A DNA stretch of 64,000 bases, taken from the NCBI RefSeq assembly GCF_000383975.1, contig NZ_KB913017.1, forward strand, positions 379,133 through 443,132. The letters run 5' to 3'. The notes under the pieces were generated by a model. The model saw only the letters and a program-made list of their open reading frames with translations. It was not told the origin of the DNA and searched no databases. The stretch is from Natronorubrum tibetense GA33. GTDB taxonomy: Archaea > Halobacteriota > Halobacteria > Halobacteriales > Natrialbaceae. The position numbers were made by a program, and so were the translations under genes. Position 1 is the stretch's first letter, and each line of letters opens with the position of its first letter. Shown here piece by piece: positions 1,671 through 5,636 of the stretch.

Positions 1671-4600
1671 CTACATGAAGCTGTCTAGCCCCTTCTGCTC
1701 TTGGCCGCTTTTTACCTCGTCCCACGAGACGCCCAACGCCTCGAGGATCCGCTCGATCGGGCCCTGTAGCGTCTTCTCGAGCATCTTGTCGTAGTCGACC
1801 TCGAACTCGTCGGGGATCTGGTCGTCGTACTCGAAGCAAATCACGTCGGGATCGCGTTTGAACGCGCCGTAGAGGGGATCCGTCTGGGGGTTGAACCCTT
1901 CCTCGCTCTCCATGCGTCGGAAGAAGGCGGGGTCGACCCGGTCGAGGTAGAGTCGCTTAGGCTTGCTCCCGCGCTGGAAGTTGGTTCCCAGCAGCAGGTT
2001 CGCGTACTTCGCACCCCGAACCTGCGCCGTATCGGTGTCGTAGTTGTCCAGTCGCTTGCCGATGCCGCCCGGGATGGCGATCTGCTCGAGCGAGATCTCG
2101 CCCGACTGAACGTCCTCGATGACGCCGTTGACGTACTCCTTCGTGCCCTCGATGTCGCCGTCCCTGACGATCATCTCGATAACCTTGTGCTGAACTTCCT
2201 TCGTGATCGGGGCGATGTCCGAGCGCTGGTACTCGAAGCCGACGATGTCGATGGTGTCGACGTCCTTCCCCTCCTTCCAGGTAATGTGGCCCGCGTAGCG
2301 TTTCTTCTTGCCTGCCTGGAAGAACCGCCGGTAGAGCTTCTCGAACTCGATCTGGAAGCGGTGGAATTCGGCATTGAGTTCGTCGCGCGCGAAGTCGTCG
2401 TACCGATCGTTGATGTACTCCTCGATCTCGAAAGACTGCTCGAGGGCGTCTTCTTTCGGGATATCAGGTCCGAGTTCGAGCATGACGCTGTCGGTGTCAC
2501 CGTAGGCAACCGTATAATCAATCTCGTTTGCGGCGGTTTCCGTGAATTCGATTACTTCTCGGCCAGTTGCAGTAATCGCAGACGCTGCCTCTTTGTCGTA
2601 GAGTCGGAACTGCTCCCAGCCCGAGACGCCGTACAATGACTGGCCGACGAACTGGAACTTTCCGTTTCGTCCTGCAAGCAGCGTGTGATTGTCTTCGACG
2701 GTGACACAGTAGACGCCATCGTCGGCAGTACTTCGAGACGAACTCCGATGCATCCGAAGCGTGTTCTTCGACTCTTCAGTGACATAAATTCGCCACGAGC
2801 CGCTATCTCGGTTATAGTTCGCCGTGAGACCGAGATGTGCACAGAGACGGAGGACATCGTCTCGAAGCCGGTCGCTAGAGGTGGAGTAGCGCCACGAGTT
2901 CACCTGCCGATCGCCGTCTCCGTCGATGAGAACCTCGAGGAATCGTCGCTTCTGCCGGCGGCTACAGTCGAAGACGAAATCAGGGATTCGTTTCTCGAAG
3001 CTATCTTCGCCACAGATCGACGTTAGAAACTCCCCAAGCAACTTCGACGTGACAGTATAGGACCGATCGTCGACGTAGTAATCGAATCCCATACCGTCGA
3101 GCAGTTGACCGATCGTCGCGTGGTGATCGACGCCGCCGTCAGCGATCGGCAGTTTATCCTGGGCTAGTTTCACCGTTGTCGCTGATCCACGGAAGTTCTC
3201 GCCGAACTGCTTGTCTTCGGACGTGTAGACGTTCCCTTCAGTCACGAACCACGCGAGCACGTCGAGGAAGTCGTCCCCGTCGTAGGTCCGGGGGATCCAT
3301 TTTCGGCCGGATTCGCGGTGGATGAAGCTTAGTTCACAGACATCTTCAATATACTCGCGGTGTTCGTCGAACTCCTCGGCGGTGAAGACGTAGCCAACTT
3401 TTCCGACATCCGCCTTCGGGACTCGACGTGGCGTCCACCCTAACTCTGCGGTGAACGTCCGGCCGTGAACGGACGGTCGAACCCAAACTTCGTATTCGCC
3501 GTCGATCAGTTCCGTTAGGTCGACGCTCTTCAGTTCGTCACCGTCTGGCCCCTCCCAGTCGTGAGGGAGTTCGTAGTTCGTCGCTCGGTCGAGGTTTCCA
3601 GCCTCGACGAATCCGTATTCGTCTTCGGTAATGCCGTTCGTCTCGTTCTTCCGGACGAGCATCCGGTGATTCGGGGTGACGCTGAAATCGATCTTGTCCG
3701 TCTCGATGTCGATCAGCTCGTCGTCGTAGTCGGGATAGGCATGTGTCTCAACGACGGGTTTAACCTCCATTTCCTCCGTTTCCGGGTCGAGCGAGTATAC
3801 ATCGTCACCGATCTCGAGGTCGGTAATATCCCGGACACCGTCGGGCGTCAGCACCTCCGTATCCGGCGTAAAGCAGTTCATGATGACCTTTACTGCCCCT
3901 TGCTGGCGGTCGTACTGCTCGTACTCGAGGCTCCCGGGTTCGTACTCGTTTCGCAGGGATTTCTTCTCCTCGCGCTCGGCGAGCAGTTCCGTGATCATCT
4001 CGCGCATGACGCCGTCAGGTTCCTTGCGGAAGTGGATCGGCTCCGGTTTGGTGGGTGCGACGTAGGTCTCCCCGTCGTATGTCTCGGGATCGACCTTCGT
4101 CTCCGGTGAGGCGTTGACCGTCGTCATGCACATCGGGTACAAACTTTTCAGGTCGAGCACGGTGACGTTCTCCTTGACGCCTGTGATCGGATCGAAGACG
4201 GCCCCGCCCTCGTACTCCTCGCCGGCTTCCTGTTGGCCCTTCGAGGGCAGCGAGAACCGGCCGTGGGCCTCGTGAAGGACGTACATGTCCACTGCGTCGC
4301 CCGGCGTGGGGGCGTCCTCTAACTTACAGCCGACGAAGGAACGCACCTCGTCCCAGAAGGTGATGATCTCCTGTTGACGGTCGAGTTCCACGCAGAGTTC
4401 GACGTCACGGAGGTTGTACTCGAGCAGTTTCGTGGGGTCGACTTCCCAAAGGTCCCCGATGTCGCCGGTATAGCGCTCCTTTCCGACCCCTAACTCGGAC
4501 TCGCCGACCGCATCCAGGCGGTAGGAATCGAGTTCGGAGAAGACCATCCGCTGGTAGCCATAGAGCAGGTCGAAGACGACCCGGCCCTTGATGTCGGGGC

Positions 4601-5636
4601 CGCCCCAGTTGCTGCGCCAGACTTCGTCGACCCGCGAGAGTCGGTCGATCGAAAGGTCGTAGTCGTGGTGGGAGCCGGCGAGTTCCTCGAGGCGGTCTAA
4701 GAAGTACGGCGCGTCGAAATCCTCGAAGTTCCAGCCCGTGAGGACGTCGGGATCCGTTTCTCGGATGTAGTCGACGAACGCCTCGAGCATCGCCTCCTCT
4801 TCCTCGAATGCCCGAACCTCGTGATCGATTTCGCCCTCGATCGGTTCGTACTCCTCGATCTCGGTGGGTATCTCCCCGTCGCCGACAGGAGCCTCGTAGA
4901 GCCACATGATGTACTCGTCGCGGTAGGAGTCGTGGCTGGTGAGACAGACGATCGGCTCCTCGCCGTCTTCGGGAAAGCCCGCGCGGTCGTTGACCTCGAT
5001 GTCGAAGGTGTTGACGCGCGGATCGGCGTCGACGTCAACTGCCTCGAGTTCGTCGTGGGGGACGACCAGCGAGCCGTCGTCGGCCCGCCGTTCCGGCACC
5101 CGAACACCGCTGCGGATGTCCTTGTCGATCAGGAGCCGATTTGGAAAGAGAATGTCGGCCTCGAAGTGCTGAAACTCGTCGCGCACCTGTCCGACGTCGC
5201 GGGGCGTCTGACCGAAGATTTTGGTCAATTTCTCGCCGCGGATACTCTCGTAGGGCTCGCCGTCCTCGCCGACCTCGCGGCTGCCGGTCAGCCGGTCGTA
5301 CTGTTCTTCGGGTGGTCGCTCGAGGGTGTCAGTCGGCGCGTAGAAGTACGGCCGGAAGCCGACGACCTGCACGTGCTCGAGTTCGCCGTCGACCGTTCGG
5401 CCGAAGACGTGCACGATCGGTCGCTCTTCGTCGCCGTAGCCGGCGATGGTGTAGTCGACCTGCATGACGGCGAGTTCGAGTTCGCCGTCGGCCTCGGGAA
5501 CCGCCTCCTCGACGACGTCGATCACGTCGGTACCGCTCGAACCGCCGTTGCCGGCGATGGCTTTCGCTTCCTCTACCGGTCGCTCGGCGGACTCGTCGGA
5601 AAATGCCTCGAGTCCAGTTTGGCCCGCCTCAGTCAT
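1671..5636 (-). CDS. polB: DNA polymerase, family B (PolB), with an in-frame intein
   Basis: Replicative or repair family B DNA polymerase with proofreading exonuclease. The precursor is 1,321 residues; removing residues 588-999 (intein) leaves 909. Exonuclease motifs are visible: Exo I FDIE (D212, E214), Exo II NFEDFD from N303, Exo III YNLRD (Y407, D411). Polymerase motif A is DLKSLYPM from D495, motif B is KVIMN/SLYG split by the intein, and motif C is YGDTDS from Y1045. The open frame extends upstream to 6296, but that part is low-complexity and overlaps plus-strand genes. The ATG at 5636 (MTEAGQTGLEAF) has a TATA-like GAATAAAAA on the top strand at 5659-5667, the right distance for a leaderless transcript, so I use it. 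Confidence 0.95.
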   Translation of the reverse strand: MTEAGQTGLEAFSDESAERPVEEAKAIAGNGGSSGTDVIDVVEEAVPEADGELELAVMQVDYTIAGYGDEERPIVHVFGRTVDGELEHVQVVGFRPYFYAPTDTLERPPEEQYDRLTGSREVGEDGEPYESIRGEKLTKIFGQTPRDVGQVRDEFQHFEADILFPNRLLIDKDIRSGVRVPERRADDGSLVVPHDELEAVDVDADPRVNTFDIEVNDRAGFPEDGEEPIVCLTSHDSYRDEYIMWLYEAPVGDGEIPTEIEEYEPIEGEIDHEVRAFEEEEAMLEAFVDYIRETDPDVLTGWNFEDFDAPYFLDRLEELAGSHHDYDLSIDRLSRVDEVWRSNWGGPDIKGRVVFDLLYGYQRMVFSELDSYRLDAVGESELGVGKERYTGDIGDLWEVDPTKLLEYNLRDVELCVELDRQQEIITFWDEVRSFVGCKLEDAPTPGDAVDMYVLHEAHGRFSLPSKGQQEAGEEYEGGAVFDPITGVKENVTVLDLKSLYPMCMTTVNASPETKVDPETYDGETYVAPTKPEPIHFRKEPDGVMREMITELLAEREEKKSLRNEYEPGSLEYEQYDRQQGAVKVIMNCFTPDTEVLTPDGVRDITDLEIGDDVYSLDPETEEMEVKPVVETHAYPDYDDELIDIETDKIDFSVTPNHRMLVRKNETNGITEDEYGFVEAGNLDRATNYELPHDWEGPDGDELKSVDLTELIDGEYEVWVRPSVHGRTFTAELGWTPRRVPKADVGKVGYVFTAEEFDEHREYIEDVCELSFIHRESGRKWIPRTYDGDDFLDVLAWFVTEGNVYTSEDKQFGENFRGSATTVKLAQDKLPIADGGVDHHATIGQLLDGMGFDYYVDDRSYTVTSKLLGEFLTSICGEDSFEKRIPDFVFDCSRRQKRRFLEVLIDGDGDRQVNSWRYSTSSDRLRDDVLRLCAHLGLTANYNRDSGSWRIYVTEESKNTLRMHRSSSRSTADDGVYCVTVEDNHTLLAGRNGKFQFVGQSLYGVSGWEQFRLYDKEAASAITATGREVIEFTETAANEIDYTVAYGDTDSVMLELGPDIPKEDALEQSFEIEEYINDRYDDFARDELNAEFHRFQIEFEKLYRRFFQAGKKKRYAGHITWKEGKDVDTIDIVGFEYQRSDIAPITKEVQHKVIEMIVRDGDIEGTKEYVNGVIEDVQSGEISLEQIAIPGGIGKRLDNYDTDTAQVRGAKYANLLLGTNFQRGSKPKRLYLDRVDPAFFRRMESEEGFNPQTDPLYGAFKRDPDVICFEYDDQIPDEFEVDYDKMLEKTLQGPIERILEALGVSWDEVKSGQEQKGLDSFM
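2640..3875 (-). other. PolB intein with LAGLIDADG homing endonuclease domain (412 residues)
   Basis: A protein-splicing element inserted in polymerase motif B, between the Asn of KVIMN and the Ser of SLYG. It starts with Cys1 (CFTPDTEVLTPDG, block A). Block B is TPNH with His70. Two LAGLIDADG-type helices are present at residues 203-215 (FLDVLAWFVTEGN) and 312-322 (FLEVLIDGDGD), each with an acidic residue in the usual catalytic place, so the endonuclease may be intact. The C-terminal end is KFQFVGQ followed by extein Ser+1: the usual His-Asn pair is Gly-Gln. The insertion keeps the reading frame. Boundaries come from Cys1 and from restoration of the conserved polymerase motif. Confidence 0.92.

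Follow-up and report, generated by a model that had tools for sequence, protein, structure and literature searches.

The polB gene of Natronorubrum tibetense GA33 carries an intein that ends in Gly-Gln, whereas His-Asn is the usual end, and this raises the question of whether the end is a defect, a brake on splicing or a normal feature of the element. In the 64,000-nucleotide stretch of DNA analyzed (the window; all features below lie on its minus strand), the PolB reading frame spans 1671..5636 and codes for 1,321 amino acids with the Pfam domains DNA_pol_B and DNA_pol_B_exo1. The 412-residue intein (2640..3875) leaves an extein of 909 residues, the length given in an earlier note on this locus. 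Its translation runs CFTPDTEV...FQFVGQ and is followed by Ser-Leu-Tyr-Gly of the C-extein. Also visible in the translation are the features from which the earlier note had recognized it, namely Cys1, the TPNH block, two LAGLIDADG motifs and, from the codons as well, the C-terminal Gly411-Gln412 (GGC CAG, 2640..2645) before Ser+1. The insertion separates KVIMN, the last N-extein residues (3876..3890, from the translation and intein-free relatives), from SLYG, a region which we take to be polymerase motif B. As a PolB query finds this polB as the single match in the genome at E≤0.001, no continuous copy of that polymerase would exist without splicing.

The limits of the intein are set by relatives that lack it. 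Twelve intein-free relatives (L017-L028) read ...VKVIMN|SLYGVSGW at the empty site, and Met-Asn|Ser-Leu-Tyr-Gly was matched directly in 263 of 391 Halobacteria genomes, so that the intein is exactly Cys1 to Gln412. A likelier C-terminal junction, for example one at an upstream Asn, had been held open by the earlier note but fails against these alleles, because the empty sites leave no upstream junction that restores the extein.

The same insertion site was then compared across other haloarchaea, as the earlier note had proposed, in a census of the 391 Halobacteria genomes (the window's own included). DNA patterns were used for the two residues before S-L-Y-G, with Asn, Lys, Gln or His as last residue and, after the junction, a Ser/Thr/Cys-like codon, Leu or Phe, and Tyr-Gly-Val-x-Gly-Trp. 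The intein-free Met-Asn is present in 266 genomes (263 by pattern, and G392, G289 and G200 on follow-up) and the site is not vacant in 122. Gly-Gln is the prevailing end among the latter, with 111 genomes (107 by pattern, and G230, G032, G034 and G298 on follow-up) as against nine with Gly-Asn and two with Ser-Asn, and His-Asn was found in 0 of the 122 by this pattern census, contrary to the earlier picture of a standard intein that lost its His-Asn by two changes. Ten genomes were missed by all patterns: the four Gly-Gln inteins and three intein-free genes recovered on follow-up, and three genomes left unscored (G318, G069, G244). In G069 polB is apparently in pieces, with TGA stops (L129, L138, L141). 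All 27 non-vacant-site genomes that were opened have an intein starting with Cys, the other genomes being scored from the two codons alone. A search of named genomes, for which the intein without its last 37 residues served as query, gave 65 of 69 loci ending in Gly-Gln and three in Gly-Asn, the last one (L099) being cut off before its end becomes visible. Chance or a sequencing error is excluded because the same end is common to close and distant relatives. Gly-Gln is on this evidence an old end which the allele has kept in Halobacteria, an oddity of the allele and not of this gene.

The intein has the anatomy of class 1. Among 97 unique inteins (82 from this site and 15 from a second PolB site), Cys1 (3873..3875), the presumed step-1 nucleophile, is invariant (97/97), as are Thr67, Asn69 and His70 of the block B motif Thr67-Pro-Asn-His70 (residues 67-70, 3666..3677), where Thr67 and His70 provide the Thr (B:7) and His (B:10) typical of the class. 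Position +1, like residue 1 a Cys, Ser or Thr in class 1, is Ser in 82/82 unique inteins at this site; in the window this first C-extein residue and predicted branch-point nucleophile is encoded by TCA (2637..2639). The C-terminal residue, Gln412, is one of those able to cyclize (Asn usual; Gln and Asp known), and the penultimate His, usual but not defining for the class, is replaced by Gly411, which does not exclude membership. The first LAGLIDADG motif, FLDVLAWFVTEGNVY (residues 203-217, 3225..3269), contains Gly214, invariant in 97/97, and the second, FLEVLIDGDGD (residues 312-322, 2910..2942), lies within a match to Pfam LAGLIDADG_3 (PF14528, residues 308-364) that is above the cut-off. 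With acidic residues in both motifs, the element classifies by sequence as an intein with a LAGLIDADG homing endonuclease. The NCBIfam model intein_Nterm (TIGR01445) is matched with 32.5-35.4 bits against a cut-off of 24.5, and intein_Cterm (TIGR01443) with 17.8-19.9 against 15.6, over model positions 2-18 of 24 and hence short of the Gly-Gln end. An AlphaFold model of the intein (pLDDT 81, pTM 0.81) shows the predicted Hint/intein fold expected of class 1, with full-length similarity to the solved inteins TliVMA (Z 23.6) and PI-PkoII (Z 22.8); the Gln-ended Pab Pol II intein (2lcj) aligns with Z 11.6 and an rmsd of 3.7 over 155 residues.

Selection on the intein bears on whether it is still used. 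Pooled over the 28 inteins of 412 amino acids, pN/pS comes to 0.192 in residues 1-110 and 0.292 in the endonuclease (190-370); it is 0.108 in residues 380-412 and 0.033 in the last 12, where constraint is stronger than anywhere else in the intein. The 70 unique Gly-Gln inteins use all four Gly codons (29, 20, 13 and 8) and both Gln codons (41 and 29). This pattern resembles that of a used splice site and not of decay, and the strong constraint on the last residues, together with persistence across the class, suggests an adapted end. With two textbook residues absent from its end, the intein might seem to have decayed, so that it has lost splicing or is left with cleavage alone. This is hardly credible given its open frame, the invariance of its catalytic residues, the strength of purifying selection and its wide persistence in a gene where it interrupts motif B. 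Intact frames are moreover the rule among the relatives retrieved, and 0 of the extracted inteins were rejected for a stop.

We consider it very likely that the PolB insert, with its LAGLIDADG homing endonuclease, is functional and splices normally by the class 1 route, with Gln412 as the residue that cyclizes. Cys1 would form a thioester, from which Ser+1 would take the N-extein; Gln412, instead of Asn, would then cyclize to a glutarimide and release the intein, and an O-N shift would come last, the exteins rejoining to give the uninterrupted 909-residue polymerase. Passages of three sources (PMC4031507, PMC8175363, PMC8229266) describe the class 1 route for Gln-ended inteins, with Gln cyclization at step 3 and a block-F His able to promote it, in line with the earlier note's view of terminal Gln as a known minority variant. 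The penultimate His is, in a passage of PMC4031507, absent in about 5% of functional inteins and not required. As that residue is absent here, we infer that the likeliest helper of Gln412 cyclization would be the block-F residue His397 (F:13, 2685..2687), which is His in 69, Asn in 10 and Gln in three of the 82 unique inteins at the site. Against a strict need for it, three Gly-Gln inteins have Asn or Gln at this position (L086, L088, L098), the residue being Asn in L088 and L098.

The earlier note had instead proposed that splicing may be slow or conditional, with consequences for the supply of the polymerase. In this reading the Gly-Gln end would make release rate-limiting, and PolB supply would depend on salt, redox or another condition. 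Passages of PMC4031507 do report Gln cyclization as slower than Asn cyclization in two studied Pol II inteins, those of Pab and Mma, and high salt is needed by most extreme-halophile mini-inteins according to a passage of PMC8229266; Cys1 and the block-F residue Cys390, both conserved, could in principle be redox-linked. The Chilo iridescent virus (CIV) RNR intein is, however, more efficient with Gln than with Asn (PMC4031507, in the passages concerned). Since known Gln inteins go both ways, slow or conditional splicing does not follow from the end itself, and several observations speak against it. The strongest constraint of the intein sits on precisely these last residues, and the empty site in close congeners, G005 included, implies that the host does not need the intein. 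In passages of PMC3024317, another haloarchaeal PolB intein, of a different allele, was removable without an effect on growth. Finally, the change of Gln to Asn at least three times (see below) means that a brake imposed by Gln has not been kept universally. Taken together, we regard such a dependence as improbable.

Cys390 (F:4, 2706..2708) opens a further route, in which the N-extein would first branch at this residue and only then pass to Ser+1, mixing the chemistries of classes 1 and 3. Class 3 inteins lack Cys1 and have Trp at B:12 and Thr at G:5. The window intein has Cys1, Met72 at B:12 and Val410 at G:5, and Cys390 alone fits class 3. Of the 82 unique inteins at this site 81 have Cys at F:4, as do 15/15 at the second PolB site, and in a passage of PMC4031507 class 3 inteins use a Cys at this position as their branch point. 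The invariance of Cys1 and the presence of Met72 and Val410 argue against such a route, as does the one exception (L011), which has Ser at F:4 and is otherwise a normal member, so that we think it more doubtful still than conditional splicing.

In an allele tree built without the trait columns and rooted with the second PolB site, all of whose inteins end in Gly-Gln, the Asn ends require four changes, three of which are needed on well supported branches alone, and are nested inside the Gly-Gln family. Gln is thus probably the older state in this allele, given the inferred placement of the root, and the tree indicates at least three replacements of Gln by Asn, in most of which the block-F His was lost as well. 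The state of block-F position 13 changes seven times on the same tree. In raw counts, His is kept in 67 of 70 Gly-Gln inteins versus two of 12 Asn-ended ones (Fisher p ~8e-9, with related rows). There are three independent pairs for terminal residue and block-F His on well supported branches and four on all branches, and when the pairs are drawn at random, His moves in the same direction in one to three of three pairs (mean 2.6) and in none against it, with a median p of 0.25. Coevolution of the block-F His with the terminal Gln may be suggested but no more, the pairs being too few for significance. The Gly-Gln inteins without this His (L086, L088, L098) suggest that its loss can come first. 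Asn-ended members are mostly shorter (353-372 amino acids; exceptions L113 and L114, both with Asn at F:13). In the larger tree two long branches (L029, L036) are of unsure placement.

Ends in Gln extend to other inteins of haloarchaeal replicative polymerases. At the second PolB site (LDLK|SLYP) Gly-Gln ends 15/15 unique inteins, which group with the intein family of this site with a support of 99. All 15 C-termini read in the PolD large subunit (L192-L202 and the range L175-L189) end in Gln, as Gly-Gln, Lys-Gln, Glu-Gln, Gln-Gln or Arg-Gln; F:4 is Cys in 10 and Asn in one of the 11 whole inteins, and Ser in L184, of which the end alone was read. Three of the 11 (L196, L197, L202) are 178-residue mini-inteins without an endonuclease. 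In contrast to these, His-Asn ends go with Asp at F:4 in the extracted inteins of PolB-c (2/2), PolB-d (2/2) and three MCM sites (6/6), and likewise in a G016 intein and in the RFC intein found in the window's genome, the alleles sampled having been picked in part with a C-terminal profile biased toward His-Asn. The window's genome has two MCM inteins and one RFC intein (L203, L204), all ending in His-Asn. An internal control is offered by G032 (L036, G032:C11:1500-10000), where a single PolB frame of 2,517 amino acids holds four inteins at four sites, two ending in Gly-Gln and two in His-Asn.

These data leave some room, albeit limited, for the idea of a separate catalytic subclass of inteins in haloarchaeal replicative polymerases, comprising those at two PolB sites and in the PolD large subunit, in which Cys at F:4 and C-terminal Gln without a penultimate His replace Asp and His-Asn. 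Cys390 might then be a redox partner of Cys1 or a second acyl carrier, and reversions to Asn would become possible after Gln has ceased to depend on the block-F His. All Gln-ended polymerase inteins may have a single origin, but the branch joining the two PolB sites with the PolD site has a support of 74 only, in a tree of 173 columns made with a quick method.

The distribution of the intein points to recent movement. In the genus of the window (G000-G009, the window's genome counted), five of ten genomes have the intein and five an empty site, indicating that gain and loss are recent; G005, the nearest by extein (N-extein 98% identical), has an empty site. Spread by viruses or plasmids was considered and set aside: a scan of viral contigs gave 0 relatives, a phage collection yielded matches that were all below 60% identity (25-36% among those listed), and the plasmid matches were four, all partial. 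The Leu codon of SLYG is the rare TTA in 15 of 101 distinct C-exteins, against 45 of 1,360 elsewhere in the same C-exteins (Fisher p ~6e-6, with related rows); co-conversion is one possible reason for this excess, and evasion of the endonuclease another.

The usual view of terminal Gln is of a rare stage that follows loss of Asn; in the present, widespread allele most members have it. For annotators, the lack of His-Asn at the end of a haloarchaeal polymerase intein should be regarded as normal and not as a sign of defect. The natural Gln-to-Asn changes and the linked change of the block-F His offer a ready comparative set on what replaces the His-Asn chemistry; the repeated changes and the coupled set of Cys at F:4, Gln at G:7 and no penultimate His in polymerase inteins are worth a second look. 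Across titles, the beginnings of abstracts and passages (a scope outside which InBase and subscription papers fall), no description of Gly-Gln ends in haloarchaeal PolB inteins was found.

Among known systems, the haloarchaeal alleles polB-a to polB-d (Soucy et al. 2014, PMC4071816, from passages) share the gene, the host class and the intein make-up, and the window intein is very probably polB-b, the commonest PolB allele of that work, as a candidate match of site to letter. The passages of PMC4071816 do not mention C-terminal residues, and 'glutamine' and 'Gln' are absent from its main text. The Haloferax volcanii PolB intein resembles ours in gene and host class and has an active endonuclease, but it occupies another insertion site, judged by its length (PMC3024317): at the YGD|TDS site, G040 has a 437-residue intein with a His-Asn end before Thr and Asp at F:4. 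The CIV RNR intein, likened here by its description, has a natural Gln end and splices, better than with Asn, in a different host protein (passages of PMC4031507). The Pol II (DP2) inteins of Pyrococcus abyssi and P. horikoshii, as described in passages of PMC8175363 and PMC8229266, share with the window intein class 1 membership, Cys1, the block B Thr and His, the block-F His and the C-terminal Gln; they differ in being mini-inteins with a penultimate His, Ser at F:4 (P. abyssi) and Cys+1, whereas the window intein has a penultimate Gly, Cys at F:4, Ser+1 and an endonuclease. Gln-ended inteins are therefore already known, and the window intein is a further case.
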